From the NCBI GenBank assembly GCA_944376295.1, contig CALWCE010000003.1:135528-199527 (forward strand): a stretch of DNA of 64,000 bases. Direction: 5' to 3'. Of the stretch, positions 17,908-45,055 are shown piece after piece (position 1 is the stretch's first letter; the number at the start of each line of letters is the position of its first letter). The notes under the pieces are model-generated. The model ran no database searches. It saw only the letters and a program-made list of their open reading frames with translations, and was not told the DNA's origin. Source of the DNA: an uncultured Clostridia bacterium (GTDB taxonomy: Bacteria; Bacillota; Clostridia; Christensenellales; Borkfalkiaceae). The position numbers and the translations under genes were made by a program.

Positions 17908-17929
17908 AAAGCATTCATCGCCCGAATAC

Positions 17930-18024: not shown

Positions 18025-18068
18025 AATATCACATCTCCCGACTTCATTTTAAGGTATTCACACACACC

Positions 18069-20444: not shown

Positions 20445-20505
20445 GGCTGCCCGCCGTCAGGATCGTTTTCCCGAGAGGCGCGAGCCGATATAAGGAGTTA
20501 TAAAA

Positions 20506-21771: not shown

Positions 21772-21843
21772 CGCTCTGCCTGGTTCCCTGACCCTTTGCT
21801 CATTTCTTGACAATTCCCCCGCATTTTGCTAAAATGATGAAAA
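21771..21843 (+). repeat. Direct repeat copy 1 (promoter-bearing)
   Basis: About 73 bases starting with ACGCTCTGCCTGGTTCCCTG and including a complete promoter. A closely matching copy lies at 23685-23757, after the next gene. The two differ by one deleted C and a few substitutions, mostly in the spacer. Confidence 0.85.
21807..21835 (+). promoter_or_regulatory. Sigma-A promoter of the GH43-like gene
   Basis: -35 TTGACA (21807-21812), 17-bp spacer, -10 TAAAAT (21830-21835). It lies in repeat copy 1, 68 bases before the ATG at 21903. Confidence 0.8.
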
Positions 21844-21902
21844 CCGTGCCGCGCGTCTCGATCTGCCCCGCGGCGCAAGAAAAAACCGTCAAGGAGGTTT
21901 CC

Positions 21903-23705: not shown

Positions 23706-23757
23706 CCTTTGCCCATTCCTTGACAATTTTGCCCTGATTTGGTAAAATGATAAAAAA
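23685..23757 (+). repeat. Direct repeat copy 2 (promoter-bearing, overlaps the GH43-like 3' end)
   Basis: Matches copy 1 at 21771 from ACGCTCTGCCTGG through the -10 box. Here the first bases encode the C-terminal residues and stop codon of the GH43-like gene, while in copy 1 they are non-coding. Confidence 0.85.
23720..23748 (+). promoter_or_regulatory. Sigma-A promoter of the KDG kinase gene
   Basis: -35 TTGACA (23720-23725), 17-bp spacer, -10 TAAAAT (23743-23748), in repeat copy 2 and 46 bases before the kinase ATG. Confidence 0.8.
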
Positions 23758-23793
23758 TATGCTGCGTACATCGCTGCATATCAGGAGAAAACT

Positions 23794-24774: not shown

Positions 24775-24788
24775 ATCTCCTCAACATA

Positions 24789-24962
24789 GCCTCCCCTGTG
24801 TAAGGGGAGGTGGCTCATCATTCGGCGAATGCCGATGATGAGACGGAGGGGTTGTTAAACCCCAAGGCGAGTCGAAGGCGTAATTGCCGGAGTTTCGCAA
24901 CTTCCCTTGGCTCCCTCCCTGAGGGAGCTGTCGAGCGCAGCGAGACTGAAGGAGTCGCCTTA
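24789..24962 (+). repeat. Composite of two REP-like intergenic elements
   Basis: Two hairpin modules in tandem. Module A (24789-24856): stem CCTCCCCT / AGGGGAGG, then GTGGC, a second stem CTCATCA-TCGGC / GCCGATGATGAG with one bulged T, then GACGGAGGGGTTG. Module B (24909-24962): stem GCTCCCTC / GAGGGAGC, then CTGTCGAGCGCAGCGAGAC, then GAAGGAGTCG. Both follow the same plan of hairpin, linker, hairpin, GGAG tail, so they look like two paralogous families side by side. Elements of this type are widespread between genes of gut Firmicutes. No open frame crosses them. Confidence 0.75.
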
Positions 24963-25067
24963 TTGTAGAAAGCAAGGAATACGATACCGCGTTCCTCTCC
25001 ACCGCGCAAGACGGTGTCTTGCCGAATGCAAGCCGAAAAGAGCAAACACATCGAAAAGGTGTATCCC

Positions 25068-27308: not shown

Positions 27309-27438
27309 AATGTGTCAAAAATCGGGGCAAAATACCCCCAAATCGTGTGACAGTGTGGTGAAAGCCTACTCAAAATTTCGCCGAAGTTCATCTTATTTAA
27401 CGATATAATTTGAAAAGAGGAGATCTGATCCTTTCGCC

Positions 27439-29811: not shown

Positions 29812-30425
29812 ATATCGAAACATTATTTAACGGCAGGAAGATCATCCCCGTCGTTACAATAGAACGAATGGAAGATTGTGAACGCATCTTCGGCGGCCTT
29901 TCGGACGGCGGCCTCCTCGCCGCCGAGGTTTGCTTTCGGACGGAGTGCGCCGAAGAGGCGATCCGCTATGCGAGAAAGACCTATCCTAAGATGCTCGTGG
30001 GGGCGGGGACGGTCATCGACGGCGGGCAGTGCCGCAGGGCGCTCGGGGCAGGGGCGCAGTTCATCGTCTCTCCCGGGCTTTCCGAGGACGTGGCGCTGCT
30101 TTCGGCGCAGGCGGATGTGCCTTATCTTCCGGGCACCGTGACGCCCACGGGCATCATGCGGGCATTGGCGCTCGGCATCGACCGCATCAAATTTTTCCCC
30201 GCCTGCAACTTCGGCGGCCTTGCGGGCATCAAGTCGCTCTCGGCGGCGTTCCCGCAGGTCCGCTTTATGCCGACGGGCGGTGTTGATCAAGAAAATTTAA
30301 CAGATTATCTTGCATACCCCAAGATCTTCGCCTGCGGCGGCACCTGGATGACCCGCGGCTCAAGAGAGGAAATTTCGCAAAAATCCCGCGAAGCCTTAGC
30401 GCTCGCGGCTTCAATAAAAAAATAA
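29808..30425 (+). CDS. eda: KDPG aldolase (2-keto-3-deoxy-6-phosphogluconate aldolase)
   Basis: A 205-residue class I aldolase of the KDPG/KHG family. The Schiff-base Lys128 lies in DRIKFFPAC, the acid/base Glu in LAAEVCFRTE, and the phosphate-binding GGV in MPTGGVDQEN. It splits KDPG into pyruvate and glyceraldehyde 3-phosphate, finishing the pathway from KDG kinase. Translation is coupled to the upstream GH2 gene by a four-base overlap, which ties this GH2 enzyme to uronate release. An SGNH hydrolase gene follows 21 bases later. Confidence 0.95.
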   Translation: MNIETLFNGRKIIPVVTIERMEDCERIFGGLSDGGLLAAEVCFRTECAEEAIRYARKTYPKMLVGAGTVIDGGQCRRALGAGAQFIVSPGLSEDVALLSAQADVPYLPGTVTPTGIMRALALGIDRIKFFPACNFGGLAGIKSLSAAFPQVRFMPTGGVDQENLTDYLAYPKIFACGGTWMTRGSREEISQKSREALALAASIKK

Positions 30426-31278: not shown

Positions 31279-32172
31279 TTATCTCTCTTTGCAGGAGGAG
31301 AACTTCTCCTGCAAGTATCGCAAAAAGATGGTTGCTGCCTGCGAAAAGATCTGATACTTTTTCCAGACAACGTCAAGATGTGCCGTGAGCGGCGGATCGA
31401 GCGGACGAAAACACAGTTCGCTCTCGCCCGAAGTGTTAACGAGCTTGTCGAGTGTCAGCACACAGCCGTAACCCGATCTTGCCGCAAGCGCCGCGTTGTA
31501 GATAAGGTTGTAGGTGCCGATGAAGTCGATTTGGTCGGCAACATCCTTATACCATTCGGTCAGAGCGCTTTTGGGGAGTGTGTGGCGGGATTGAAAGACG
31601 GATACCCCGACAAGATCCTGCGGAGAGATCGTTTCCTTATGCGCAAGCGGATGGTTCCTGTTCATCAGCAGTCCCCATCGCTCCAGCGCAGGAAGGCGGA
31701 TGCTTTCGTACTTTGTAAGATCGGCGGGTTGGATGACAAGCCCAAAGTCGATGAGCCCCTTGTCGAGCCGCTCGCATACATCGGAAATATCTCCGCTGTA
31801 AATGTGTAGTTTGATGTTGGGATATTGCGTCCGCATTTCGTTTGCGATATCCAAAAGGAGCTGCATGGCGTGACTTTCTCCTCCGCCCAGATACACGTTG
31901 CCGCTTACCGACTGCTGCGGGTGGATGAGTTCGCTCTCCGTCTTTTCGTAGAGCGCCAGGATCTCCTCCGCGCGCTTTTTCAAAAGCAGCCCCGCTTCGG
32001 TCAGCCGCATCTTCTTTGCGCCACGCATAAACAGCGGTTGTCCGACCTCTTTTTCCATGCTCTGGATCTGCCGCGTGAGGCTGGGCTGGGTGATGTACAA
32101 AAAGTCCGCCGCACGGGAAATACTTTCTTCTCGCGCAACGGCGAGAAAATATTTCATCTGCAAAAGTTCCAT
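31279..32172 (-). CDS. LysR-family transcriptional regulator
   Basis: A 297-residue LysR-type regulator with the standard N-terminal winged HTH (FLAVAREESISRAADFLY, ITQPSLTRQIQSMEKEVGQP) and a periplasmic-binding-protein-like effector domain (from about residue 90). It is divergent from the lipoprotein gene at 32285, the usual arrangement for a LysR regulator and its target. A minus-strand promoter lies at 32192-32221 with an inverted repeat in its spacer, so it may repress itself. The effector is unknown. Confidence 0.95.
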   Translation of the reverse strand: MELLQMKYFLAVAREESISRAADFLYITQPSLTRQIQSMEKEVGQPLFMRGAKKMRLTEAGLLLKKRAEEILALYEKTESELIHPQQSVSGNVYLGGGESHAMQLLLDIANEMRTQYPNIKLHIYSGDISDVCERLDKGLIDFGLVIQPADLTKYESIRLPALERWGLLMNRNHPLAHKETISPQDLVGVSVFQSRHTLPKSALTEWYKDVADQIDFIGTYNLIYNAALAARSGYGCVLTLDKLVNTSGESELCFRPLDPPLTAHLDVVWKKYQIFSQAATIFLRYLQEKFSSCKER

Positions 32173-32191
32173 TTTCTTGCCTCCAGTATCA

Positions 32192-32221
32192 AGTATACCA
32201 GATCCGATCTATAGAAGTCAA
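32192..32221 (-). promoter_or_regulatory. Promoter of the LysR gene with embedded inverted repeat
   Basis: Minus strand: -35 TTGACT (32216-32221), 18-bp spacer, -10 TATACT (32192-32197). The palindrome AGATCCGATCT (32200-32210) sits between the boxes and could be the autoregulatory site. On the plus strand a TATAAT at 32237-32242 without a good -35 is a candidate activator-dependent promoter for the lipoprotein gene. Confidence 0.7.
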
Positions 32222-32284
32222 GCATGGAACCGCCGATATAATTCGGCTGAAGCATATATCGAAAAGCGAACACAGGAGGCAAAC

Positions 32285-32851
32285 ATGAAGTCTATCATTT
32301 TCAAGAGTGTCTTTGCGGTGTTTCTTGTCGTCTGCCTTGCGCTGTTTGCTTCGGCTTGCGGGCCAAACGGCATTTTCTCTGAGGGTGGTCAAGGAACGCA
32401 GACCCCGCCCGTTCAGCCGGAAGAGCCGAATATCCCGAATACTCCCGACCTGCCCGAAGAGCAACCGGGAGACGACGAACATGAGAAGGAGACGGAGATG
32501 TATCTTCACATCAACGGGAATGCGCTTACAATATCGCTTGCCGATACAGATGCCGCGCGCGCCCTTGCCTCGCTTTTGCAAGAGAGCGATATCGTTTATA
32601 CCGCGCGCGACTACGGCGGATTCGAAAAGGTCGGCAGCCTCGGGCATACACTGCCCGCAGAGGATAGCCGGATCGCTGCCGAACCCGGCGACGTCATGCT
32701 CTATCAGGGCGGTCAGATCGTCATCTTTTATGGTAGTAATACATGGTCCTATACGCGGCTGGGGCGCATCGAAGGATATTCTTCTGCGGAGCTTGCTGCG
32801 CTGTTGGGAACGGGTGATATGCAGGTTCGGCTGAGCTTGCAAGAGGATTGA
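32285..32851 (+). CDS. Lipoprotein with cyclophilin-like domain
   Basis: A 188-residue secreted lipoprotein: signal peptide with lipobox ASAC, a Pro/Glu-rich linker (about residues 35-75), then a 115-residue cyclophilin-like domain (MYLHINGNALTISLADTDAA to MQVRLSLQED). Such domains resemble cyclophilin in fold but are not known to be prolyl isomerases. The ATG at 32285 follows an AGGAGG site; an in-frame start further upstream (32057) would run through the divergent LysR gene and can be discarded. The hydrolase gene begins 22 bases after the stop, so they form a LysR-controlled pair. Confidence 0.82.
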   Translation: MKSIIFKSVFAVFLVVCLALFASACGPNGIFSEGGQGTQTPPVQPEEPNIPNTPDLPEEQPGDDEHEKETEMYLHINGNALTISLADTDAARALASLLQESDIVYTARDYGGFEKVGSLGHTLPAEDSRIAAEPGDVMLYQGGQIVIFYGSNTWSYTRLGRIEGYSSAELAALLGTGDMQVRLSLQED

Positions 32852-32873
32852 CAAAATTCAAGGAGGCAAAGAT

Positions 32874-33818
32874 ATGTCATACGGTTACATTGCAAAGCTG
32901 AGCGAAAAGGTCGGGCGGCAGCACGTGCGCTTTTATAACCGCTTCGGGATCGCATTGGCGGGCGATCTGTACACGGCAAAGGACTTAGATCAAAGGAAGA
33001 AGTATCCTGCTGTCATCATCGGCGCACCCTACGGCGGCGAAAAGGAACAGGGTCCCTGCGTGTACGCCAACGAGCTTGCTCGGCGCGGGTTTGTCGTGCT
33101 TACGTTCGATCAGCCGTTCATGGGCGGATCGGGCGGCGAACCGCGCCATACCTCTTCGCCCGAAATGTTCACGGAAAGCTTCAGCGCCTGCGTCGACTTT
33201 TTGGGGGTCAAAGTTCCCTTTGTCGACAGGGAAAAGATCGGCGCCATCGGTATCTGCGGTTCGGGCGGATTTGCGCTCGCCGCGGCACAGACGGATGTGC
33301 GCATCAAGGCGGTGGCGACCGCGTCTATGTATGTGATGACGGATGCGGTACGGCTGGGCCAATCGCCCGAAGAGATCGCCGCGGCAAAGAGAGCACTTGC
33401 GGAAAAGCGCTGGGAGGACTATGAAAAGGGTCAGCCCGAGTACCTCCCGAGTTTCCCCGAAGAGCCGTTGGAAAACGTTCCTCAGGGCGTACCCGAGCCC
33501 GATGCCGAATGGCTGCGCTTTTATGCGGTGAAGAGAGGGCATCATCCCGAGGCGAGGGGTGGCTTTACGACGACGAGCGTTCTTTCGATGCTGGGCAGCA
33601 AACTGCTTGCTTTCGTGGATGAGATCAGCCCTCGCCCCGTCCTCTTTTTGGTAGGCGACAGGGCGCACTCCAAATTTTTCAGTGAAAACGTCTATGCGGC
33701 TGCAAGGGAGCCCAAAGAGCTGTACGTCGTGAAGGATGCCGAGCACATCGACCTTTACGACCGCACCGACCGCATTCCCTTCGACAAGCTGGAACGCTTC
33801 TTTCAGGAAAATCTGTAA
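32874..33818 (+). CDS. Alpha/beta-hydrolase
   Basis: A 314-residue cytoplasmic alpha/beta-hydrolase. The nucleophile elbow is GICGSGG (Ser about residue 125), the acid probably the Asp in LVGDRAHS and the base the His in DAEHIDLYD. The overall pattern (KYPAVIIGAPYGG, LTFDQPFMGGSGG) matches the dienelactone-hydrolase-like group often found next to LysR regulators and cyclophilin-like proteins in Firmicutes. The substrate is unknown. An AAGGAGG site precedes the ATG, and a terminator follows at 33934. Confidence 0.88.
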   Translation: MSYGYIAKLSEKVGRQHVRFYNRFGIALAGDLYTAKDLDQRKKYPAVIIGAPYGGEKEQGPCVYANELARRGFVVLTFDQPFMGGSGGEPRHTSSPEMFTESFSACVDFLGVKVPFVDREKIGAIGICGSGGFALAAAQTDVRIKAVATASMYVMTDAVRLGQSPEEIAAAKRALAEKRWEDYEKGQPEYLPSFPEEPLENVPQGVPEPDAEWLRFYAVKRGHHPEARGGFTTTSVLSMLGSKLLAFVDEISPRPVLFLVGDRAHSKFFSENVYAAAREPKELYVVKDAEHIDLYDRTDRIPFDKLERFFQENL

Positions 33819-34054: not shown

Positions 34055-35071
34055 CTAAGAGGAAAATGCCTTGTGAAGGAAGCTGAGAAGGGCGGAAAGC
34101 CCTTTTTTTGCGGGCGCTTCCGCGAGGCGGAAGAGATAGTCGTGAGGGACGGCGCCGTTCTCCCTTTCGAAGTAGAGCTCTCGGACGGGGATGTTTTTGC
34201 GGCGCAGCGCTTCGCCTAAGGCGCGGTTCTGCACTTCGAAGCTGCCCTCGTTGCCGTCGGTGAGGAAGGCGGGCGGGAAGTCTTTTGTGACGTGCGGCGC
34301 GATGAGCGTCTCGTTCGCCGCGCGGCTCCTGTGCCAGAAGAGCTTGCCGAAATACGCCTTGCCCCAGAGATCGACGAGGAACAAGAACTTTTTGTCGTGC
34401 GCCTTCGCATAGCGGCGGAGGGCGGGAAGGTCGAAGGGGCCCGAAACGAGGGCAACGCCTTTGAGCGGGGATAAAAGGCGGCGCCGAAGGCACATTCGGG
34501 CGCGAAGCTCCGCATTCGTCTCCTTTGCGGCAAATTGTGCGGCGAGCTGGGCGCCTGCCGAATCTCCGCCAAGGACGATGCGGTCCCGATCGACGGGGCA
34601 GCGCTCACAAAGCTTTGGAAGGAAGGTGAAAAAGGCGTCGATCGCTTTGATTGCCGCAGGATAGCGGTGTTCGGGAGCGACGGGGTAGTCGAGGCTCACA
34701 GCCGCATAGCCCGCCGCCGCAAGGCAGGTCATCACGTTTTCGGTGCCTTCCTTTTCGCCTGCGATAAAGCCGCCGCCGTGGATCCACACGACAAGAGGAA
34801 GGGGCTGCGTTTTGTCGGCGTCCTTCGGAAGATAGAGGTCGAATTTGTTCGAAGGAACGCGCGAGGGGTAGGGAAGATCGCGCTGCACGCTGACGCGGGC
34901 GCGGAGCTCGTCGTAGTCTTCGGGGAAGGAGAGGGCGGTCTCGTCGACGGGGCCGCGCCTCAGCTTTTTTGCGGCAAAACGGGGGAGCAATTCAAGCGCA
35001 AGGAGCAGATACACCGCCCCCGCAGCCAAAAGGCAGCAAAGCACGATGAGCGCGATGAGCAGGGGCGCCAT
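34055..35071 (-). CDS. Membrane-anchored lipase/esterase of the HSL family
   Basis: A 338-residue alpha/beta-hydrolase. Residues 1-28 form one hydrophobic segment, a probable N-terminal anchor. The oxyanion motif HGGGF (about residue 95) and nucleophile GGDSAGA (about residue 165) define the hormone-sensitive-lipase-like family. It would cleave short-chain esters such as acetyl groups. The start codon overlaps the stop of the DUF4091 gene by one base (TGATG), so the two are translated together, pointing to a common glycan substrate. Confidence 0.9.
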   Translation of the reverse strand: MAPLLIALIVLCCLLAAGAVYLLLALELLPRFAAKKLRRGPVDETALSFPEDYDELRARVSVQRDLPYPSRVPSNKFDLYLPKDADKTQPLPLVVWIHGGGFIAGEKEGTENVMTCLAAAGYAAVSLDYPVAPEHRYPAAIKAIDAFFTFLPKLCERCPVDRDRIVLGGDSAGAQLAAQFAAKETNAELRARMCLRRRLLSPLKGVALVSGPFDLPALRRYAKAHDKKFLFLVDLWGKAYFGKLFWHRSRAANETLIAPHVTKDFPPAFLTDGNEGSFEVQNRALGEALRRKNIPVRELYFERENGAVPHDYLFRLAEAPAKKGLSALLSFLHKAFSS

Positions 35072-36795
35072 CAGTCCGCTTCCTCCGAAAGAAGCTGAAG
35101 GAGCGTTTTGCGGAATGCCGTGTAGTCGGCGGGATCGTGCGAGAGGATGCCCTCTTTCGTGAAAAAGTCGTCCTGCATGTAGGAAGAGACGTCGGTATTT
35201 TTGAGGATGAGGGGGAGCGCCGCTTCGACGTCCTGCCTGCGGCCGCGGTCACTTAGAAGCTGCATGGCTTCCTTGAGCTGCAGCATGCGCTTTAAGGCAA
35301 AGTAGCGGACGGAATAGAGCACGCCGCCGTTCTTTGCGGGGTAGACGAAGTTGACATCGCCTGCGGGGAGCGCCGTATTGTTGTAGCGGATGTCTTCGAG
35401 GGGGCGTTCCGTCCAGCAGGTGTACGCCCAGCGCAGGAAGCCGTCAAAGCCGAAGAGATACCCGATCGCGGCGAGCGCCGTGCACTCGTAAAGTTCGCTT
35501 CTAAGCACCGTGTTGGGTTCGTTCTTGGGGATATTGCAGACGTAGAAGAGGATGCGCCGCTTCTCGTTTTCCTCTCTTACCTTGTGCAGGAGCGCGCGGT
35601 TTTCGCAGCTGCAGGGGAAGGAGGCGGCGATTTCGTCCGTGTCGGGCGAGAAGGTCTGGATGGCGGACGTCTTGTCGAGCGCCATCTTGAACTTGATGTC
35701 GGGCGCGACGGAGCGCAGGAGCGCAACGTTTTTGTTGTACGCGTTGAGATCGGAGGGCTCGTCCGCGCCGATGCGCACGAGATGGAAGACGCCCATCTCG
35801 CGGAAGAGGGCAAACAGCGCGCGGATGTAGGAGAGGATGTCCTCCGTCTTTTCAAGATATTTGAAGCAGCCGTCCGCCTCGTCGAGATAGCGGATGAGCA
35901 CCTGTTCGGGGTAGTCTTCGGGCGCAGACCCCGGGAAGAGGGGCATGTGCGACCAGATCCCCATGAGGCCGTACACGGTGATATCCCCGCGGATGCCGTA
36001 GGAAAAGCACAGCTCGATATACCGCCTGAGCGCGGAAAAGTCGTAGGAAAAGCTGCCGTCCTTTTCCCTTCGGATCAAGATCATCGAATATTCGAAGAGG
36101 GTGGCGGGGTGATCTTTGAGAAGATAGCACCCCCAGCCCCGCCACGGGCAGTCGCCCGCGACGACGGTGACGGATCTCTGACCGAGGTCGGAGAGCGTCG
36201 CGATGACCTTCTCCATCTCCACGAAGTGTTCGTCGCTCCACGGCTCTACGCCGAAGGTGCGCGCGATGTTGCTGTTGTGCTGCCAGAGATCGAGATGGCA
36301 GCGCCACTGCTGCGGGGAGGGAAGGACATAGGGAAAGACGGTGAAAGGGAGCGTCTCTTCGAAGATTTTACGCTCTTCGCGGGCGCCCTTTGCCTCGAAG
36401 AGGCGCACGGTGACGGCGTATTGCCCGGGCTTTGCGTCGGCGGGCACGTCGATGAGGATGTGCGCGGGGGCAAAGAGGCCGCCTTCGTAGGTTTGCGGGC
36501 TCTCCCAGAGGATCTCTGCGCAGGGGACGCCGTTTTCGTCTTTGAGATACCCTTCCGTGCGCACGGTGCAGGGGAAGGGAGAATGGACGGCGACGCGCAG
36601 GCGAGAAAGCCCTGCTTCATAGGTGAGCGCGGGGGATGTGCCCGCATTCAGGATGCAGCGGGTGCCCGAGTCTATGAGCAGCTGGAAACAGACGCTGTCG
36701 TTGCGTGCCGAAAAGAGCTCCTTCACGGGCACGGGGGGCTTGGCGCGGACGCTGCCGCGCGCTTTGAAGTATTCGTCGGTGAGGATGATGTTCAT
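35071..36795 (-). CDS. DUF4091-domain (GH123-like) glycosidase candidate
   Basis: A 574-residue protein: N-terminal beta-sandwich (about 1-160), a barrel-like middle, and a C-terminal DUF4091 signature (FLRWAYTCWTERP, then GDVNFVYP and a run of helices). A neighbouring Asp-Glu pair in RIGADEPSD near residue 340 fits the catalytic DE pair of GH123 and related families, so it is probably a hexosaminidase-like glycosidase; activity is unproven. The start is uncertain: ATG 36795 is used, but a GTG at 36822 is in frame and neither has a good ribosome site. Coupled to the lipase gene downstream. No signal peptide. Confidence 0.75.
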   Translation of the reverse strand: MNIILTDEYFKARGSVRAKPPVPVKELFSARNDSVCFQLLIDSGTRCILNAGTSPALTYEAGLSRLRVAVHSPFPCTVRTEGYLKDENGVPCAEILWESPQTYEGGLFAPAHILIDVPADAKPGQYAVTVRLFEAKGAREERKIFEETLPFTVFPYVLPSPQQWRCHLDLWQHNSNIARTFGVEPWSDEHFVEMEKVIATLSDLGQRSVTVVAGDCPWRGWGCYLLKDHPATLFEYSMILIRREKDGSFSYDFSALRRYIELCFSYGIRGDITVYGLMGIWSHMPLFPGSAPEDYPEQVLIRYLDEADGCFKYLEKTEDILSYIRALFALFREMGVFHLVRIGADEPSDLNAYNKNVALLRSVAPDIKFKMALDKTSAIQTFSPDTDEIAASFPCSCENRALLHKVREENEKRRILFYVCNIPKNEPNTVLRSELYECTALAAIGYLFGFDGFLRWAYTCWTERPLEDIRYNNTALPAGDVNFVYPAKNGGVLYSVRYFALKRMLQLKEAMQLLSDRGRRQDVEAALPLILKNTDVSSYMQDDFFTKEGILSHDPADYTAFRKTLLQLLSEEAD

Positions 36796-36907
36796 GATGC
36801 GAGGAAAGTATAACTGATCCACAGTATCTTACAACAGTATAGCACTTTTTGCTCGTCCTTGGAGAGGGACGTGAAAAACTACTACTTCTTATTATACGAG
36901 GCAAAGT

Positions 36908-37795
36908 ATGGCAGTCAGATCGAAAAAGCCGTCCGACGTCATCGTCCGGATCGCGACGTACTTCTTTACCGCTCTCTTTGCCGTCCTGTGCGTGCTGCCC
37001 ATGTGGCACGTCATCATGGCGAGTTTTTCCGACCCCATCCGCCTTTCGCTCTATGAAGGGTTCCTCTTCAGCCCGCTCACGTTCTCCGTCGAGGGCTATG
37101 AGCTACTCTTTTCCTACGACGGCCTGTGGCGGAGCTACCTCAACACCGTCATCTACACGGCGGGCGCGACGGGGCTGGGGCTCGTGCTCGATCTGCTCGC
37201 GGCGTATGTGCTCTCGCGCAAGAAGGTGCTCTTCAACCGCCCGCTGATGGTGTTCATCATCATCACGATGCTCTTCAGCGGCGGCATCATCCCGCTGTAT
37301 ATCGTCGTGCGGGCGCTCGGGCTCGCCAATACGCCGGCTGCGATGATCATCCCCGCCTGCTGCAACGCGATGAGCATCATCATGCTCAAGAACGGCATGG
37401 AATCGGTGAACGATTCCATCTGTGAAGCGGCGCAGATCGACGGCGCGGGTCATGTGCGCATCCTCGTGCAGATCATGCTCCCGCTCACGACGTCCTTCAT
37501 CGCCACGGTGGTGCTCTTCAATGCGATCGGCCATTGGAATTCGTGGGTGAACGCTTCGATGTTCATCAGCCGCTCGCACAAGGATCTCTATCCGCTGCGG
37601 CTCATCATGCGCGACATCCTCATCAACAACAGCGCGGAGGGCGTGCTCTCCCCGTCGGGGTATCCCATCTCCTTCTACCTCGCTTCCCTTCGTGTGGTGA
37701 TGGTGGTGGTCGGTTCGCTTCCGCTCATCATCCTCTATCCCTTCATGCAGAAGTATTTCGAGACGGGCATCATCATCGGCGGCGTCAAGGAGTGA
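36908..37795 (+). CDS. Orphan sugar ABC transporter permease, LplC/YtcP type
   Basis: A 295-residue CUT1 permease, about six membrane segments, with PMWHVIMASFSDPIRL near the start and the EAA loop (ICEAAQIDGAGHVRILVQIM). It is the second-permease type, which normally works with an LplB partner and a binding lipoprotein, yet neither is adjacent: divergent DUF4091 gene on one side, convergent LacI gene on the other. A GAGG site lies before the ATG. It could pair with the LplB protein at 5907 or a distant one, possibly to broaden substrate range, or be a relic of a lost operon. Confidence 0.9.
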   Translation: MAVRSKKPSDVIVRIATYFFTALFAVLCVLPMWHVIMASFSDPIRLSLYEGFLFSPLTFSVEGYELLFSYDGLWRSYLNTVIYTAGATGLGLVLDLLAAYVLSRKKVLFNRPLMVFIIITMLFSGGIIPLYIVVRALGLANTPAAMIIPACCNAMSIIMLKNGMESVNDSICEAAQIDGAGHVRILVQIMLPLTTSFIATVVLFNAIGHWNSWVNASMFISRSHKDLYPLRLIMRDILINNSAEGVLSPSGYPISFYLASLRVVMVVVGSLPLIILYPFMQKYFETGIIIGGVKE

Positions 37796-37845: not shown

Positions 37846-38853
37846 TTATGCCGAGGTGCGGCGGATGAGCGATGTGCCGACTTCGATCTTGACGGGCGGG
37901 AGCCCGTCTTTTATTTTGTCCAAAAGGCGTTTTGCGGCGGCCCTGCCCATCTCCTGTTTGGGGACGCGCACCGTCGTGAGCGTGGGGGAGGTGTAGGCGC
38001 AGAGGGGCATATCGTCGAACCCGACGACGGCGACATCCTGCGGGATGCGCTTCCCCCGCTCGGTGAGCGCCCGCATGGCGCCCGCCGCGATGAGGTCGTT
38101 GTCGGCAAAATAGCAGCGGGCAAGCTCTTCGCCGCGGTCTAAAAGTTCGAGCATGTCCGAATAGGCGCCTTCCGCGGAGGGGGTCAGACGGTGCACGATG
38201 CTGCGCGAAGGGGAGAGCCCGCTCTTGCGGATGGCTTTGTAAAAGCCGTCGGCGCGCTCCGAGAAATTGTTGATGGGGTAGGAGGAGCTCAGATACCCCG
38301 CCTGCGTGCGGTACTTGGAGATGAGATAGCCCGTCGCAAGATAAGCCCCCTGCACGTTGTTGATGAGCACGCTGTCGTATGGCGCGCCTTCGAAGTAGGT
38401 ATCAAGGAGCACAACGGGGAAGGGAAGCAAGGAAAGGAGGGGGAGATCGCCTTCGTCCATCTCGGTGCCGAGGATGACCGCCCCGCCGAAGCCCTCTTTG
38501 GCGGCAAGGGAAAACTGCGTGCGGCTGTCTTCTTCATAGACATAGCGCACAAGAAGGCGGTAGCCCTGTTTCCGCGTCTCCGCTTCGATGCCCTGCGTGA
38601 GCTCGGAAAAGAAGGGGGTGTCGGCGACCACGGCGCCGTGCTTTTTATAGATGAGAAAGAGGATGTTTCCTTCGGGGTGTTCGCGTTCGAACTGCCTTTC
38701 CTTGATGCGCGAAAAGTCGTAGCCCTGTTCTTCCGCTGCCGCAAGGACGCGCGCCCGCGTTTTTTCGCTGACGCCGACTTTTCCGTTGAGCGCCATCGAG
38801 ACGGCTGCCTCCGATAAATTTAATTGCTTTGCAAGTTCCTTCGCTGTGATCAT
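37846..38853 (-). CDS. LacI-family repressor, probable regulator of the apiose-type operon
   Basis: A 335-residue LacI/GalR-type regulator. The N-terminal HTH and hinge (MITAKELAKQLNLSEAAVSM, ALNGKVGVSEKTRARV) are typical, followed by a periplasmic-binding-protein-like domain for a sugar effector (YLISKYRTQAGYL; VGFDDMPLCAYTSPTLTTVR). It is divergent from the operon starting at 38990 and separated by a 136-base region with two face-to-face promoters and a 10-bp inverted repeat, so it very likely represses that operon until a pathway sugar is present. Confidence 0.93.
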   Translation of the reverse strand: MITAKELAKQLNLSEAAVSMALNGKVGVSEKTRARVLAAAEEQGYDFSRIKERQFEREHPEGNILFLIYKKHGAVVADTPFFSELTQGIEAETRKQGYRLLVRYVYEEDSRTQFSLAAKEGFGGAVILGTEMDEGDLPLLSLLPFPVVLLDTYFEGAPYDSVLINNVQGAYLATGYLISKYRTQAGYLSSSYPINNFSERADGFYKAIRKSGLSPSRSIVHRLTPSAEGAYSDMLELLDRGEELARCYFADNDLIAAGAMRALTERGKRIPQDVAVVGFDDMPLCAYTSPTLTTVRVPKQEMGRAAAKRLLDKIKDGLPPVKIEVGTSLIRRTSA

Positions 38854-38885
38854 GAGCTCCTCCCGCGGATGCGTTCCGCAGCTTT

Positions 38886-38914
38886 ATTGTAGCAAATTAA
38901 GTAAATTAAGTCAA
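38886..38914 (-). promoter_or_regulatory. Promoter of the LacI gene
   Basis: Minus strand: -35 TTGACT (38909-38914), 17-bp spacer, -10 TACAAT (38886-38891). The spacer holds a 9-base direct repeat (TAAATTAAG in plus-strand sense). Confidence 0.8.
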
Positions 38915-38921
38915 TGGTTTT

Positions 38922-38955
38922 ACTGAACTTCTCTTGAAGAAAGATGAAGTTCAGT
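38922..38955. promoter_or_regulatory. Candidate LacI operator (inverted repeat)
   Basis: ACTGAACTTC (38922-38931) and its exact reverse complement GAAGTTCAGT (38946-38955), 14 bp apart. The arms flank the -35 box of the plus-strand promoter and the right arm abuts its -10, where a bound repressor would block RNA polymerase. Confidence 0.65.
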
Positions 38956-38962
38956 TTACAAT
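38934..38962 (+). promoter_or_regulatory. Promoter of the apiose-type operon
   Basis: -35 TTGAAG (38934-38939), 17-bp spacer, -10 TACAAT (38957-38962). Transcription would start near 38969, which favours the ATG at 38990 over the one at 38975. Confidence 0.75.
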
Positions 38963-38989
38963 GAAGAAAAAATCATGAGAGGGCTCACT

Positions 38990-40456
38990 ATGACCGTAAA
39001 ACAGTATGACATGATAGAATTTTCCGTCGGCAATGCGCCGCTTTGCGCAGAGTTCCGATTGGGAGAAAAGTGTGTGCGGGCGGAGAGCTTTTTGAAGGCA
39101 AAGGGCGATTACGCCGTGCGCTTCATGCCCGATGCTTTGGGCGAGTGGCGCTACCGCATCGGGGAAAAAGAGGGGAGCTTCGGATGCGTCCCAGATGAGG
39201 GTGTGCACGGGCGCGTGCAGGAGAAGGGAACGCATTTTTGCTATGAGGACGGCACGCCCTTCTATCCCTTCGGCACGACTTGCTATGCCTGGACGAGCCA
39301 GGAGGACGCGCTCGTGGAAGAGACGATTTTCACGCTGAAGACGGCGCCCTTCAACAAGATCCGCATGTGCATCTTCCCCAAGCATATGCCCTATAACTAC
39401 AACGAGCCGCCCTACTTCCCCTTTGAAAAGGACGAGAAGGGGGAGTGGGATATGCAAAAGCCCGACTTCCGCTATTGGGATCGCCTCGACCGCTGCCTTG
39501 CGGCGCTTCGGGAGATGAACATCGAGGCAGACATCATCCTCTTCCACCCCTATGACCGCTGGGGCTTTTCGAGGCTCGGGATGAAGAAAAATTTGCAGTA
39601 CCTCAAATATGCCGTCGCCCGCCTTTCCGCTTACCGCAATGTGTGGTGGAGCCTTGCCAACGAGTACGAAATGGTGACGGCGCTCTCCTTGGACGATTGG
39701 GATACGATCGGGCGCTTTATCGCGGAAAAGGACGCTTATCATCATCTCATCGGCGTGCATGATTGGGTCTGCCCCTTCCCCAAGAAGAAATGGCTGACGC
39801 ATGCCTCCATCCAGAGCGGCGAGGTGAGAAGGGTCGCTGCCTGGAAGAAGGAGTATGGCATCCCCGTCATCATCGATGAATTCGGCTATGAAGGCGATCT
39901 TCCGTTCGGATGGGGGAATTTGTCTGCCTTCGAATTTATGAATCGCGCGTGGAGCATCGCCGCGGTCGGCGGTTATGCAACGCACGGCGAGACCTTCCAC
40001 CGCGAGGACGAAGTCTTGTGGTGGGCGAAGGGCGGAAAGCTGTACGGCAAGGCGCCCGAACGGTTTGCTTATCTTAAGAGCGTGATCGAGGAAGCCGGGG
40101 CGCTGGAGCCCGTTTCGGCGCTGCCCAAAGACCCCAACGGCAACGACGGGAACGATTGGGTGAGGAGGCTTGTAGAAGGGTTCCCCGCCCGCGAACAGTG
40201 GCAGGTGGAGCTCTGTTTTGCCGAGTTCTACGGCCGCAACGAGGGGCACCGTATTCTGTATCTCGGCCGCCAGTGCGCGCGGTATCTGGAGCTCGCGCTT
40301 CCCGAAAAGGGCGAGTACCGCGTGGAAGTCATCGATATCTGGGAGATGACGCGGAGGACGGCGCTCGAAGCTGCACACGGCAAGGTACGCGTGGAACTGC
40401 CCGCCAAAGAGGGCATCGCGCTCCTTGTCACGCGTTTAAGCGGAGAAAATTTATAA
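38990..40456 (+). CDS. DUF4038/GH140-like glycosidase, putative apiosidase
   Basis: A 488-residue protein: N-terminal DUF5060-like beta-sandwich (about 1-85, FEFSV-type start, GEWRYRIGEKEGSF), a (beta/alpha)8 barrel of the DUF4038/GH140 type (YPFGTTCYAWTS, KIRMCIFPKHM, DIILFHPYDRWGF, WWSLANEYEM, VIIDEFGYEGDLP), and a C-terminal DUF5605-like sandwich. Characterised GH140 enzymes release D-apiose from rhamnogalacturonan II. Here the enzyme heads an operon with sugar isomerase, split transketolase and kinase genes, which supports the same role. The ATG at 38990 has an AGAGGG site. No signal peptide, so it would act on imported apiose-bearing oligosaccharides. A related beta-glycosidase activity cannot be excluded. 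Confidence 0.82.
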   Translation: MTVKQYDMIEFSVGNAPLCAEFRLGEKCVRAESFLKAKGDYAVRFMPDALGEWRYRIGEKEGSFGCVPDEGVHGRVQEKGTHFCYEDGTPFYPFGTTCYAWTSQEDALVEETIFTLKTAPFNKIRMCIFPKHMPYNYNEPPYFPFEKDEKGEWDMQKPDFRYWDRLDRCLAALREMNIEADIILFHPYDRWGFSRLGMKKNLQYLKYAVARLSAYRNVWWSLANEYEMVTALSLDDWDTIGRFIAEKDAYHHLIGVHDWVCPFPKKKWLTHASIQSGEVRRVAAWKKEYGIPVIIDEFGYEGDLPFGWGNLSAFEFMNRAWSIAAVGGYATHGETFHREDEVLWWAKGGKLYGKAPERFAYLKSVIEEAGALEPVSALPKDPNGNDGNDWVRRLVEGFPAREQWQVELCFAEFYGRNEGHRILYLGRQCARYLELALPEKGEYRVEVIDIWEMTRRTALEAAHGKVRVELPAKEGIALLVTRLSGENL

Positions 40457-40472
40457 AATTCGGAGGATAGAT

Positions 40473-41873
40473 ATGGATAAGATCGTTTTGGGATTTGCGC
40501 CGACGAGGCGGAGCATTTTCTCCGCGCCTGCGGCGGTGGAGTATGCAAACTACACGCGCGAGAAGCTGCGCGCAATGGGCGTGGAGTTCGTCGATATCGA
40601 CGATATTTCTTCGGACGGGCTTCTGCATGACGACAACGACCGCGTGAAGATCGCCAAAAAATTCAAGGCGGTGGGGGTGGACGGGCTCTTTTTCCCGCAC
40701 ACCAACTTCGGCACTGAATATGAGGTTGCCCGCCTCGCAAAGGAGATGGGGCTGCCCGTCCTTTTGTGGGGTCCGCGCGACGAGCGCCCCGATGAGAACG
40801 GCGTGCGCCTGCGCGACAGCCAGTGCGGGCTCTTTGCAACGGGCAAGGTGCTGCGCCGCTTCCGCGTTCCCTTCACCTATCTTTGCAACTGCAATTTGGA
40901 GGACGAGGCGTTTGAGCGGGGCGTGAAGCTGTTCCTTGCCGTCTGCAACACGGTGAAGGCATTCCGCAAGACGCGCATTTTGCAGATCGGGCCGCGCCCC
41001 TTCGACTTCTGGTCGACGATGTGCAACGAGGGGGAGCTTTTGGAAAAGTTCAACATTCAGCTTGCGCCCGTGCCGCTTGCAGAGCTCACCGCCGAGATGA
41101 AGAAGGTGAAGGAAGAGGGGAAAAAGGTCAAAGAAACGATCGAATATTGCCGCAGGAATTTCAAAGTATCCGTTTCGGACGAACAGCTCGAAAACGTTGC
41201 CGCGCTCAAGGGCGCCATGCAGAATTTGGCGGAAAAATACGGCTGCAATGCGGGGTGCATCCAATGCTGGAACGCGCTTCAGGATGAGATCGGCATCATG
41301 CCGTGCGCCGCGAACAGCCTTCTCAATGAGGAGGGCTTCCCCGTCGCCTGCGAGACGGATATCCACGGGGCGATCACATCTGTTCTGGTGGAAGCGGCGG
41401 GCATGGGCGTGAAGCGCTCCTTCTTCGCCGATTGGACGGTGCGCCACCCCGACAACGAGAACGGGGAACTGTTGCAACATTGCGGGCCGTGGCCGTCTTC
41501 CTGCCTGAATTGCAAGCCCGAGATCTGCTATCCGCTCGCCTTCGACTATCCGGGCGCGGTCGCGGGCGAAGCCAAGCACGGCACCATGACGCTCGCCCGC
41601 TTTGACGGCGACAACGGCGAATATTCGCTTTTGCTCGGCAACGCGAAGGGCATCGACGGGCCTTATACCAAGGGCACCTATGTGTGGGTGGAAGTCAGGA
41701 ACTGGAAGCGGCTGGAAGCGAAGATCGTCGAAGGCCCGTATATCCATCACTGCGTGGGCATCCATGAAGACGTCGTGCCCGTCCTCTACGAGGCGTGCAA
41801 GTATCTGGGCATCAAGCCCGATCTCTATGACGACGTCGAAGAAGACGTGAAGGCGTATATCCGAGGGGAATGA
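40473..41873 (+). CDS. L-fucose/L-arabinose isomerase-fold sugar isomerase (putative D-apiose isomerase)
   Basis: A 466-residue member of the fucose/arabinose isomerase superfamily. Conserved parts are a substrate-binding N-terminal half (GVDGLFFPHTNFGTEYE, LLWGPRDERPDE) and the metal-binding half with CIQCWNALQDE, ACETDIHGAITS and a late His (IHHCVGIHED). It would convert an aldose to a ketose. Given the apiosidase-like gene before it and the transketolase and FGGY kinase after, D-apiose to apulose is the best-fitting reaction, but other pentoses are possible. An CGGAGG site precedes the ATG. The transketolase gene starts two bases after its stop, so they are coupled. Confidence 0.8.
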   Translation: MDKIVLGFAPTRRSIFSAPAAVEYANYTREKLRAMGVEFVDIDDISSDGLLHDDNDRVKIAKKFKAVGVDGLFFPHTNFGTEYEVARLAKEMGLPVLLWGPRDERPDENGVRLRDSQCGLFATGKVLRRFRVPFTYLCNCNLEDEAFERGVKLFLAVCNTVKAFRKTRILQIGPRPFDFWSTMCNEGELLEKFNIQLAPVPLAELTAEMKKVKEEGKKVKETIEYCRRNFKVSVSDEQLENVAALKGAMQNLAEKYGCNAGCIQCWNALQDEIGIMPCAANSLLNEEGFPVACETDIHGAITSVLVEAAGMGVKRSFFADWTVRHPDNENGELLQHCGPWPSSCLNCKPEICYPLAFDYPGAVAGEAKHGTMTLARFDGDNGEYSLLLGNAKGIDGPYTKGTYVWVEVRNWKRLEAKIVEGPYIHHCVGIHEDVVPVLYEACKYLGIKPDLYDDVEEDVKAYIRGE

Positions 41874-41874
41874 G

Positions 41875-42693
41875 ATGGACGAACTTACAAAAAATTCTTA
41901 CAAGCTTCGGCGCATCGTCATCGAGGCGGTGTACCGCTCCTCGTCTGGGCATATCGGCGGCGATCTCTCCGTCGTCGATATCCTCAATGTGCTTTATAAC
42001 AAGATCATGAACGTCTCGCCCGAAACGCGCACCGATCCGAACAGAGATCGCTTTATTCTGAGCAAGGCGCACTGCGCGGACTGCCTTTATGCCGTCCTCG
42101 GAGAGAAGGGGTATTTCGATCTTGAAGAGTATCTCAACACCTTCGAACGTTTTCAGAGCCGGTTCATCGGCCATACAAATACGGATATCCCCGGAGTGGA
42201 GATGAACGGCGGTTCGCTGGGGCATGGACTTGCGGTGAGCGTGGGAATGGCGCTTTCGGCCAAGATGGACGGACGCGGCTATCGCACCTATGTCGTCCTC
42301 GGCGACGGCGAGATGGCGGAGGGCAGCAACTATGAGGCGATGATGGCGGCGGCGCAGTACGGTTTGGATAATCTCTGTGCGACCGTCGATCTCAACGGGC
42401 TACAAATTTCGGGCACGACGAAGGAAGTCATGAACAGCGCGCCGCTCGGCGAGAAATTCAAGGCGTTCGGATGGAACGTTATCGAAGTCATGGACGGAAA
42501 TCACTGCGAAGAGCTCGTCGCTGCCTATGAGGCGGCAAAGAACTGTAAAGGGAAGCCCACCGCCGTCATCGCGCACACGGTGAAGGGCAAGGGGGTCTCC
42601 TTCATGGAGAACAACGCGAAGTGGCATCACGGCGTGATGAGCGCCGAACAGTACGAGCGCGCGGTGCGCGAATTGGAGGCGATGTATGAATAA
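41875..42693 (+). CDS. Transketolase N-terminal subunit (putative apulose-4-phosphate transketolase)
   Basis: A 272-residue protein equal to the thiamine-diphosphate-binding half of transketolase. The TPP/Mg motif is GDGEMAEGSNYEAMMAAAQY...NG, with RIVIEAVYRSSSGHIGGDLS at the start and AHTVKGKGVSFMEN near the end. Split transketolases work as two-subunit enzymes with the following gene. In the known apiose route such a pair moves a two-carbon unit from apulose 4-phosphate to glyceraldehyde 3-phosphate, giving xylulose 5-phosphate and dihydroxyacetone phosphate. A general pentose-phosphate transketolase is the alternative. It overlaps the next gene by eight bases. Confidence 0.9.
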   Translation: MDELTKNSYKLRRIVIEAVYRSSSGHIGGDLSVVDILNVLYNKIMNVSPETRTDPNRDRFILSKAHCADCLYAVLGEKGYFDLEEYLNTFERFQSRFIGHTNTDIPGVEMNGGSLGHGLAVSVGMALSAKMDGRGYRTYVVLGDGEMAEGSNYEAMMAAAQYGLDNLCATVDLNGLQISGTTKEVMNSAPLGEKFKAFGWNVIEVMDGNHCEELVAAYEAAKNCKGKPTAVIAHTVKGKGVSFMENNAKWHHGVMSAEQYERAVRELEAMYE

Positions 42694-43612
42694 AGTGACC
42701 AACCGCCAGGTCATCTGCGATACGCTGCTTGCGGCGGCAAAGGAAGATCGGAATATCATCGTCGCCTGCTCCGATTCGCGCGGGTCGGGCTCGATGACGG
42801 CGTTTTTTGAGCAGTTTCCCGCTCAGAGCGTGGAAGTGGGCATTGCGGAGCAGGATCTTGTCTCTATTTCGGCGGGACTTGCCTCCTGTGGCAGGAAGGT
42901 GTTTTCCGTCTCTCCCGCCTGCTTCCTCTCCACCCGCTCCTATGAACAGGCGAAGGTGGACGTCGCTTATGCGGAGACCAACGTGACGCTCGTCGGCATT
43001 TCGGGGGGCATTTCCTACGGGGCGCTGGGCATGACGCACCATTCTTTGCAGGATATAGCGGCAATGTCGGCTCTGCCCGGGATGCGCGTGTATCTGCCTT
43101 CCGACCGCTTCCAAACGAAAGCCGTCGTCGAGGAATTGCTCCAGGACGAAAAGCCTGCCTACATCCGCGTTTCGCGCAGTGCGAGCGAAGATCTCTATTC
43201 CGAAGACACCGTTTTCTCGGGCGGCGCAAAGGTGCTGAAAGAGGGGAAGGACGTGCTGTTTGTCGCCTGCGGCGAACTCGTCGCGCCCTGCCTGCATGCG
43301 GCGGAGCTGCTAGGGGAAGAGGGCGTTTCGGCGGGCGTCGTCGATGCCTACCGCGTCAAGCCGCTCAATGAGGAGCTAATTTTGAAGGCGGCGGAGGGGG
43401 TGCGCCTTGTGGCGGCGGCAGAAGAGCATTCCCCCTACGGCGGGCTGTTTTCGATGACGGCGCAGCTGTTCTCTTCGAAGCGCCCGAAGAAGGTCATAGG
43501 GCTCACCCTGCCCGACGGGCATATCGTCACGGGGACGCAATCGGAGGCCTTTCAGTACTACGGGCTGACCGCAGAAGGCATCGCAAGGCGCGTGAAAAAG
43601 GAGCTCGCATGA
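42686..43612 (+). CDS. Transketolase C-terminal subunit
   Basis: A 308-residue protein with the transketolase pyrimidine-binding domain (VEVGIAEQDLVSISAGLASC, the catalytic Glu in IAEQD; SYGALGMTHHSLQDIA) and the C-terminal domain (LLGEEGVSAGVVDAYRVKPL). It completes the active site of the upstream subunit. The gene overlaps its partner by eight bases and the kinase gene by four (ATGA), so all three are made in matched amounts. Confidence 0.92.
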   Translation: MNKVTNRQVICDTLLAAAKEDRNIIVACSDSRGSGSMTAFFEQFPAQSVEVGIAEQDLVSISAGLASCGRKVFSVSPACFLSTRSYEQAKVDVAYAETNVTLVGISGGISYGALGMTHHSLQDIAAMSALPGMRVYLPSDRFQTKAVVEELLQDEKPAYIRVSRSASEDLYSEDTVFSGGAKVLKEGKDVLFVACGELVAPCLHAAELLGEEGVSAGVVDAYRVKPLNEELILKAAEGVRLVAAAEEHSPYGGLFSMTAQLFSSKRPKKVIGLTLPDGHIVTGTQSEAFQYYGLTAEGIARRVKKELA

Positions 43613-45024
43613 AGACGGTACTTTGTATCGACCAGAGCACGCAGGGCACGAAGGCGCTCCTTCTCGATGAAGAGGGGCGGGTGATCGCGCGCGCCGCAAG
43701 GCCGCACAGGCAGATCGTCGACGGGCGGGGATATATCTCCCATGACCTCAATGAGATCTGGCAAAACGTGCTTCTTGTCGCCCGCGAGTGCGTGGGGGAG
43801 AATGCCGCGAGCGTGAAAGCGGTCGGCATCTCCAACCAACGGGAGACGAGCTGTATGTGGAACGATGAGGGCCCGCTTGCAGATGCCGTCGTGTGGCAAT
43901 GTGCGCGGGGGAAGGATATTTCCGACGCGCTCGCTCCGTATGCGGATCTTGTGCGCGAGAGAACGGGACTGCCGCTCTCGCCCTATTTCCCCGCCGCGAA
44001 GTATGCCTGGCTGCTTCGGAATACGGAGAAAAGCGGGAAAGTGCGCTTGGGCACCGTTGACAGCTTTCTCGTATGGAAGCTCACGGGCAATTATTATACC
44101 GACTATTCCAATGCTTCGCGCACGCAGCTCTTTGATCTCCATACGCTGCAATGGGATGAGGAGCTGTGCCGCCTCTTCGGCGTGCCCGTCGAAGCGCTGC
44201 CCGAGGTCAAAGACAGCGACGGGGTGTTCGGCTATACCGACCTGGGCGGCATTCTCCCCGAACAGGTGCCCGTGTGCGGCGTTCTGGGCGATTCGCACGC
44301 CGCCCTCTTCGCCGAGGGATGCCTTGCCGCGGGGCAGCTCAAAGTCACCTACGGCACGGGAAGCTCCGTGATGATGAACGTGGGGGAGAAATTCGTTGAG
44401 AGTCGCTGCGGGCTCGCTTCTTCGCTCGCATGGAAGCGGAAGGGGAAAGTCAGTTATGTGCTCGAAGGGAATATCAATTATTCCTGTGCCGTCATCACCT
44501 GGCTGAAAGACGATCTGGGGCTCCTGAACGACGCGAAGGAGGCGGGCGTGTTGGCGGCGGAGGCGAACGAGCGGGATGAGACGGTGCTCATCCCCGCCTT
44601 TTCGGGGCTTTCGGCGCCCTATTGGAAGCCGGAGGCAAGGGCCGCCATCCTCAACATGAGCCGCACGACGGGCAAAAAGGAGCTTTGCCGTGCGGCGGAG
44701 GAGAGCATTGCCTTTCAGATCGCCGATATTCTGGATGCGCTCCGCGCCGATACGGGGCTCGAAGCCCGCGAAGTGCGGGCGGACGGCGGCGCCGCGGGGG
44801 ATGCGTTCCTCATGCAGCTGCAGGCGGACGTTTCAGGGGCAAGCGTGCTTGCTTCCTGTGAGCGTGAGCTTTCCCCACTCGGGGCGGGCGTGCTTGCGGG
44901 CATTGCGGCGGGGGTGTACCAAGAGGACGTCCTCCAAGGCGAGGTGCGCCGTTTTACGCCCCGCGAAAATGCGCGCGTCATAGCTTCCCGCGCTCGCTGG
45001 AAAAATTGTCTGAAACAGCTATAA
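43609..45024 (+). CDS. FGGY-family carbohydrate kinase (putative apulose kinase)
   Basis: A 471-residue FGGY kinase with both halves of the fold: N-terminal CIDQSTQGTKALLLDEEG and the ISNQRETSCMW block, and C-terminal VTYGTGSSVMMNVG and RADGGAAGDAFLMQLQAD. The early sequence resembles glycerol and xylulose kinases. With an isomerase making a ketose and a transketolase using a ketose phosphate, the position in the pathway demands a ketose kinase; apulose is the candidate. Glycerol or xylulose kinase activity is the main alternative. Its start overlaps the upstream gene by four bases and a strong terminator follows at 45031. Confidence 0.9.
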   Translation: MKTVLCIDQSTQGTKALLLDEEGRVIARAARPHRQIVDGRGYISHDLNEIWQNVLLVARECVGENAASVKAVGISNQRETSCMWNDEGPLADAVVWQCARGKDISDALAPYADLVRERTGLPLSPYFPAAKYAWLLRNTEKSGKVRLGTVDSFLVWKLTGNYYTDYSNASRTQLFDLHTLQWDEELCRLFGVPVEALPEVKDSDGVFGYTDLGGILPEQVPVCGVLGDSHAALFAEGCLAAGQLKVTYGTGSSVMMNVGEKFVESRCGLASSLAWKRKGKVSYVLEGNINYSCAVITWLKDDLGLLNDAKEAGVLAAEANERDETVLIPAFSGLSAPYWKPEARAAILNMSRTTGKKELCRAAEESIAFQIADILDALRADTGLEAREVRADGGAAGDAFLMQLQADVSGASVLASCERELSPLGAGVLAGIAAGVYQEDVLQGEVRRFTPRENARVIASRARWKNCLKQL

Positions 45025-45030
45025 GCACAA

Positions 45031-45055
45031 AAGCCCGCGTGAGCGGGTTTTTTTT
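45031..45055 (+). terminator. Intrinsic terminator of the apiose-type operon
   Basis: Stem CCCGC / GCGGG (45034-45038, 45043-45047) with a GTGA loop and an eight-base T-run, extended by A-T pairs. It starts seven bases after the kinase stop. Confidence 0.9.

Follow-up and report, generated by a model that had tools for sequence, protein, structure and literature searches.

Apiose is a branched sugar that occurs in the cell walls and the flavonoids of plants. The scheme of reactions for the transketolase route of D-apiose degradation reportedly comes from Carter et al. in 2018. In an excerpt of a further paper, Escherichia coli strains with the SE15-type cluster, which harbors aptA, aptB and aplK, are described as growing on D-apiose, whereas K-12 does not; the same excerpt cites Carter et al. 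for the demonstration that Clostridia degrade the sugar (PMC13001218). The genes lmo1030-1036 of Listeria monocytogenes are labeled in an excerpt of another study as hypothetical, transketolase, glycerol kinase and phosphotransferase system (PTS) genes, without a function (PMC2996996). The locus considered here lies in a stretch of 64,000 nucleotides from an uncultured Clostridia bacterium of the Borkfalkiaceae (contig CALWCE010000003.1, positions 135,528 to 199,527), referred to below as the window. It is very probably a LacI-controlled operon for the use of D-apiose by the transketolase route, with the activity of each enzyme predicted. The gene content of this cassette, its conservation and the kinship of its transketolase are directly established, and D-apiose is the best-supported substrate.

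Gene content and proposed pathway

The operon is real and consists of a LacI-type regulator, a glycosidase, an isomerase, both halves of a transketolase and an FGGY kinase. The LacI-family repressor gene is divergent (37846-38853, minus strand) and its product contains the Pfam domains LacI and Peripla_BP_3. The remaining genes are on the plus strand and begin with that of a glycosidase with the domain order DUF5060-PF13204-DUF5605 (38975-40456). This is followed by an aldose-ketose isomerase of the fucose/arabinose isomerase superfamily, recognized by its fucose-isomerase C-terminal domain and proposed to be a D-apiose isomerase (40473-41873). The Transketolase_N subunit (41875-42693) is placed in the AptA group by Pfam, best match, tree and residues, and the C-terminal subunit, which harbors Transket_pyr and Transketolase_C (42686-43612), is AptB-like by Pfam and by its identity to AptB. 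The final gene encodes the FGGY kinase (43609-45024), a proposed apulose kinase that by Pfam, tree and pairwise identity is related to GlpK, as AplK is. Successive genes are separated by gaps of 16 and 1 bases and then overlap by 8 and 4. The operon ends in an intrinsic terminator (45034-45055), read directly from the sequence as CCCGC-GTGA-GCGGG followed by eight T. The original prediction had been made from the letters and open reading frames; its gene order, families and tight spacing, its divergent LacI gene with a common control region and its terminator all agree with the open reading frames, the Pfam and NCBIfam families and the features just described.

In the proposed pathway, apiose-bearing plant glycosides or oligosaccharides would be imported, and D-apiose would be freed from them in the cytoplasm by the PF13204 glycosidase. 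The fucose-isomerase-fold enzyme, whose clade is distinct from that of its proteobacterial counterparts, would convert D-apiose to D-apulose, and the FGGY kinase would form apulose 4-phosphate. The AptAB-type split transketolase would then transfer two carbons to glyceraldehyde 3-phosphate, to give xylulose 5-phosphate and dihydroxyacetone phosphate. The LacI control presumably responds to an inducer. The new parts of the operon are the predicted isomerase, by its clade, and the predicted glycosidase, by its family.

Conservation and spread of the cassette

When named genomes were searched for the isomerase, 74 loci emerged, from which one of 36% identity (L102) was dropped, and the remaining 73 sister loci were analyzed. 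By record title, these are from Lachnospiraceae, Oscillospiraceae, Anaerovibrio, Holdemanella, Olsenella and others. Among named loci long enough for the count, the isomerase is followed by transketolase subunit A in 64/64, by subunit B in 63/63 and by the kinase in 52/56, a recurrence that places the gene order beyond chance. A divergent LacI gene is found within 3.5 kb upstream in 42 of the 56 sister loci that are long enough. Under a looser count, in which a short locus is included only if the gene is present, the figures become 70/70, 66/66 and 61/65, and 51/65 for LacI. Three of the four loci without an adjoining kinase (L070, L083 and L086) have one further along the same locus, and the fourth (L073) has none in its available sequence.

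The closest named relative is a contig of Candidatus Gallimonas, with an isomerase identity of 98%. Cultured carriers include Blautia parvula, Eisenbergiella tayi and Floccifex porci. In the cassette of a close relative (L098, 13131-14666), the kinase matches only partly (145 bits) and is possibly broken or misassembled. At an E-value of 1e-20, an isomerase homologue is present in 89 of 391 sampled genomes of the class to which the window belongs, its own included, although many of these are distant. Within the same sample, none was found in the three other members of the genus or in two members of the family, and the cassette is therefore patchily spread.

The split transketolase

E. coli AptA matches the cassette subunit better than any other protein in 18 of 18 genomes. 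A tree of 59 subunit A sequences unites the cassette proteins, six AptA proteins and the subunits of two operons with a Rahnella-type isomerase in one clade (support 99/91). Of 20 other split transketolases, 19 fall outside this clade, as do all four transketolases that stand beside other isomerases; the sole paralog inside it (L148) adjoins a second, partial copy of the isomerase gene in its genome (G403). Four residues, Asn111, His117, Ser151 and His252, are invariant in 36/36 members of the clade, and occur in only 1, 2, 1 and 1, respectively, of the 23 outsiders. Together, the best matches, the clade and these signature residues identify the enzyme as a split transketolase of the AptA/AptB type. 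The window subunits are 45% identical to AptA and 35% identical to AptB of E. coli, AptB having been compared pairwise only, outside any tree. The trees in this work drew on 26 of the 73 named loci for the transketolase, 25 for the isomerase and 24 for the kinase, plus Listeria and Monoglobus, with L098 omitted from the kinase tree on account of its incomplete kinase match.

At two further loci (L128 and L129), another isomerase clade of the superfamily adjoins a divergent split transketolase; the former has no kinase match there, and the latter a weak one (22%).

The isomerase

Profile searches place the isomerase in the L-arabinose isomerase superfamily (6e-14). Its invariant residues are Glu294, Asp296, Asp320, His336, His425 and His426, which are candidate metal ligands by analogy with fucose isomerase. 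In the isomerase tree, the cassette type and the Rahnella type fall into separate clades, each with support of 100/100, and the Rahnella-type clade also includes three isomerases from loci without a match to an AptA-type transketolase. The gene for the Rahnella enzyme is inferred from its operon position to be apsI. In two loci of the window's own class (L123 and L124), the glycosidase, both transketolase subunits and the kinase are kept, but the isomerase is of the Rahnella type, so that one isomerase seems able to replace the other. Read simply, two lineages of the isomerase superfamily would perform the same step. The doubt first voiced over whether this fold matches known apiose isomerases was apt, since the fold is that of some proteobacterial apt operons but the clade is a different one.

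The kinase

The kinase is the weakest member of the apiose assignment, as its similarities are ambiguous. It shares 37% identity with E. coli AplK and 38% with the other GlpK-like protein of its own genome. Against the GlpK models it scores 453 of 590 bits (TIGR01311) and 456 of 498 bits (NF000756), in both cases below the curated cut-off. The best-scoring models for AplK are likewise those of GlpK, and it too lies under both cut-offs, which means that the cut-offs alone decide nothing. The refuting test at first put forward, namely a clustering of the kinase with glycerol kinases, likewise has no power to discriminate, given that AplK, the apulose kinase of E. coli, is itself GlpK-like. In the kinase tree, 17 GlpK-like paralogs form one clade (100/100) and the cassette kinases another (100/100, for 26 rows without Listeria). 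A plain glycerol operon was considered and rejected, with the kinase below both GlpK cut-offs and outside the clade of GlpK-like paralogs.

The glycosidase and neighboring hydrolases

The glycosidase matches PF13204 with 51.8 bits, above the curated cut-off of 26.5, and this Pfam domain is the part of its first description as a GH140-like enzyme that holds; it did not match the GH140 structures 5msy and 8t9w, whether by protein search (E up to 0.001) or by profile search (E up to 0.01). Since its sequence places it outside GH140, an apiosidase activity is suggested by its linkage to the other genes, and the enzyme is an apiosidase candidate that could instead remove a neighboring sugar. It is probably cytoplasmic, as no signal peptide is evident by eye, and its true start is probably at 38990, where an in-frame ATG is preceded by AGAGGG. 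The only solved relative that was found is 4n0r.

Two invariant residues, Glu230 and Glu302, are likely to be the catalytic pair. In GH140 enzymes, catalysis relies on an Asp as the acid/base and a Glu as the nucleophile. Profile-profile comparison aligns the window family with a sister family of DUF5060-PF13204 proteins at 99.7% probability, and only weakly (62%) with the GH140-type sister family, in which Asp154 and Glu238 correspond to Glu230 and Glu302. Glu230 alone cannot settle membership of GH140, because the DUF5060-PF13204 sister family has a Glu at this position and yet matches 5msy. Two PF13204 genes of sister cassettes match 5msy and 8t9w.

PF13204 genes recur near the cassette. 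In 25 of 50 genomes, one lies within 10 kb of the isomerase gene, where an even spread of matches across each genome would give 0.47; a single match below the cut-off was excluded. The neighbor belongs to the family of the window glycosidase in 20 genomes and to a stronger class (at least 180 bits) in six, with both present in one. These 50 genomes comprise the window's own and those of 49 of the 73 sister loci, chosen after the position of the glycosidase was known, and they cover 23 of the 27 PF13204-bearing loci as opposed to 26 of the 46 others. The share of 25/50 is therefore somewhat high, as the set leans towards PF13204 carriers, and the fairer figure is 27/73, the sister loci with a PF13204 gene of at least 90 bits in their available sequence. 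In Holdemanella and Floccifex, a PF13204 gene flanks the cassette on each side. In Holdemanella, the one downstream of the kinase has the solved 'Apiosidase' 8t9w as its best match. In Floccifex, an esterase-like protein, a PF13204 protein, the isomerase, transketolase A and B, the kinase, a second PF13204 protein and two GH1 proteins are encoded in a run, which is what the use of an apiosyl-glucoside would be expected to need.

A further class of hydrolase also recurs. In 13 of the 50 genomes, nucleoside-hydrolase-like proteins that match PF07632 are encoded no more than 10 kb from the isomerase, where 0.26 would be expected under the same assumption. Apiose occurs as a furanoside, and these proteins are thus candidate apiofuranosidases. 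The window has its own nucleoside-hydrolase-like gene (919-1956, plus strand; PF01156 62 bits, PF07632 39 bits), around 38.5 kb from that of the isomerase, and no other protein of the genome matches PF07632 at an E-value of up to 1e-5.

Transport

The sister cassettes of Anaerovibrio, Dorea and Olsenella include a substrate-binding protein (SBP), a DUF2291 protein, an ABC ATPase and a permease. Compared with the E. coli and Rahnella clusters, identities are 42-59% for the SBP (five loci), 43-48% for the ATPase (six) and 51-53% for the permease (four); the DUF2291 protein has a match in one locus only, at 29%. A sugar SBP that scores at least 90 bits with that of Anaerovibrio is found in 11 of the 73 sister loci. 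The Anaerovibrio protein, the only sister SBP that was compared with the PDB, matches 5ibq/4ry0 best, with 363 bits against 193 for the next entry, and the same two entries are the top matches of the SBP from the E. coli apiose cluster, far above other structures. The entry 5ibq is labeled 'Probable ribose ABC transporter, substrate-binding protein' and is reportedly an SBP in complex with apiose.

In the window, neither a partner permease nor a binding protein was seen next to a sugar ABC permease gene (36908-37795, plus strand); the nearest relatives of this permease are elsewhere in the genome (G000:C12) and at about 7113-7982 of the window.

Control region and flanking genes

The control region shared by the LacI gene and the operon (38854-38974) is described by consensus matches only. 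Promoter-like hexamers are arranged back to back in it, at 38934-38962 on the plus strand and 38914-38886 on the minus strand. Such sites are weak evidence, as the whole stretch has four where 2.1 are expected. A perfect 10+10 inverted repeat (38922-38931/38946-38955) is a candidate operator. An automated scan reported the stem-loop of the terminator (45034-45047) on the minus strand only.

Elsewhere in the window, a run on the plus strand (14165-30425) encodes GH78, GH43, GH3, a 6PGDH-like/CMD fusion, GH43, PfkB, GH2, GH2 and a KDPG/KHG aldolase, and looks like a plant-glycan or uronate locus. On the minus strand, a gene for a protein with a GH123-type catalytic domain (35071-36822) adjoins that of a BD-FAE/Abhydrolase_3 esterase (34055-35071).

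Weighing the assignment

A number of observations weigh against D-apiose as the substrate. The window isomerase is only 25% identical to that of the Rahnella apt operon, and a fucose-family isomerase is present in only three of seven proteobacterial aptA clusters examined; those of E. coli, Klebsiella KLP00155 and Caballeronia carry SDR oxidoreductases, and Erwinia has neither an SDR protein nor an isomerase nearby. Among 18 genomes, AplK finds its better match in another GlpK-like kinase in 14 and in the cassette kinase in four. AplK joins the cassette kinases weakly in the tree (80/51), and the Listeria and Caballeronia kinases stand apart on long branches. The glycosidase falls outside GH140 in protein and profile searches alike, and the available sequence of 46 of the 73 sister loci has no PF13204 gene of at least 90 bits. 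Finally, no apiose-type SBP match was found in the window's own genome, in a search made without a positive control, an absence that fits the import of glycosides rather than of free apiose.

In a rival reading, the cassette would handle a different sugar, such as another furanosidic or branched aldose, with the same isomerase-kinase-transketolase logic. The isomerase clade is indeed not that of the proteobacterial apt operons, and the nearest isomerases outside it (L112-L122, 39-53% identity) are all, in 11 of 11 cases, without such a transketolase in the 9-14 kb available. We nevertheless consider this improbable, as the cassette isomerase is repeatedly accompanied by the same transketolase group, the same SBP family and apiosidase-type PF13204 genes, and the Rahnella-type isomerase can take its place. 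A shade less probable again is a different order of steps with the same sugar, in which the transketolase would split unphosphorylated apulose to yield dihydroxyacetone and the GlpK-like kinase would then phosphorylate the dihydroxyacetone. This order draws on the near-equal identities of the kinase to AplK and to the GlpK-like protein of its own genome; it is countered by the GlpK-like nature of the E. coli apulose kinase and by the separate clade of the 17 paralogs.

An isomerase together with a split transketolase is also what a sulfoquinovose operon of the sulfo-transketolase type would contain, and SftI is the only NCBIfam model that the isomerase matches. The score, however, is 107 bits against a cut-off of 700, and two Rahnella-type isomerases reach 114 and 117; of three isomerases beside other split transketolases, two score 202 and 290 and one 101. 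The transketolases at all four such loci lie outside the AptA clade. A kinase is present, and none of the nine genes scanned belongs to GH31 or GH188, families known to include sulfoquinovosidases. On the SftI score, the presence of the kinase and the transketolase tree, this highly implausible candidate was rejected.

As regards D-apiose itself, the original prediction of a transketolase-route operon is well supported by the comparison with the E. coli cluster, and by the transporters and GH140-type apiosidases of sister cassettes, but not in its glycosidase family or in its naming of rhamnogalacturonan II as the source of the sugar. The GH1 genes of sister cassettes and a beta-glucoside PTS favor apiosyl-glucosides at least equally.

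Implications and comparison with known systems

The wider picture is a tentative one, to which we give slightly less than an even chance. Gut Firmicutes and Coriobacteria may have separately recruited a distant isomerase clade for D-apiose and paired it with apioside-cleaving enzymes other than GH140. The latter would be the DUF5060-PF13204-DUF5605 proteins, with a Glu as acid/base, and, in sister cassettes, nucleoside-hydrolase-fold proteins that act on apiofuranosides. The Listeria operon would thereby gain a function in the use of plant apiosides. A testable substrate is thus offered for an operon widespread in gut bacteria and Listeria, the genes of which are mostly labeled 'transketolase' or 'glycerol kinase', along with two or three families of candidate apiosidases and four signature residues by which apulose-phosphate transketolases could be recognized.

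Among known systems, the GH140 apiosidases (3kzs/5msy and 8t9w) have the PF13204 domain in common with the window glycosidase, and Glu302 aligns with the corresponding Glu of the GH140-type sister protein; the window enzyme differs in having no sequence match to them and in Glu230, where the GH140-type sister protein has an Asp. Its match among solved structures is 4n0r, a putative glycoside hydrolase in the PDB (E 1e-80). The D-apiose cluster of E. coli SE15 and ST131 (PMC13001218) resembles the window operon in both transketolase subunits (45% and 35%) and in its GlpK-like FGGY kinase (37%), but it lacks an isomerase and a glycosidase, carries two SDR oxidoreductases and an ABC transporter, and has a regulator of another kind. 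The SDR pair of the E. coli cluster is encoded at 32042-33657 of locus L106, and Klebsiella pKLP00155_2 likewise has two SDR oxidoreductases and no isomerase. The operons of Rahnella, Klebsiella INF102 and Sodalis share the three catabolic steps, with an isomerase again of the fucose-isomerase family, and differ in regulator and gene order, which is SBP-DUF2291-ABC and aptA-aptB-isomerase-kinase, with the ABC type of the E. coli cluster; the Rahnella isomerase belongs to another clade (25% identity).

In L. monocytogenes NZ_LR134403 (L170, 4004-13086), LacI, the isomerase, transketolase A and B, the kinase, a beta-glucoside PTS and a PF13204 protein are encoded in one run, which by gene order and annotation matches lmo1030-1036. 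In the excerpted table, lmo1030 is a BglG-type regulator (PMC2996996), whereas NZ_LR134403 has LacI there. The PTS and the PF13204 gene, of the GH140 type (313 bits), stand in place of the window glycosidase. The other proteins are shared with the window, at identities of 30% for LacI, 70% for the isomerase, 53% and 50% for transketolase A and B, and 38% for the kinase.

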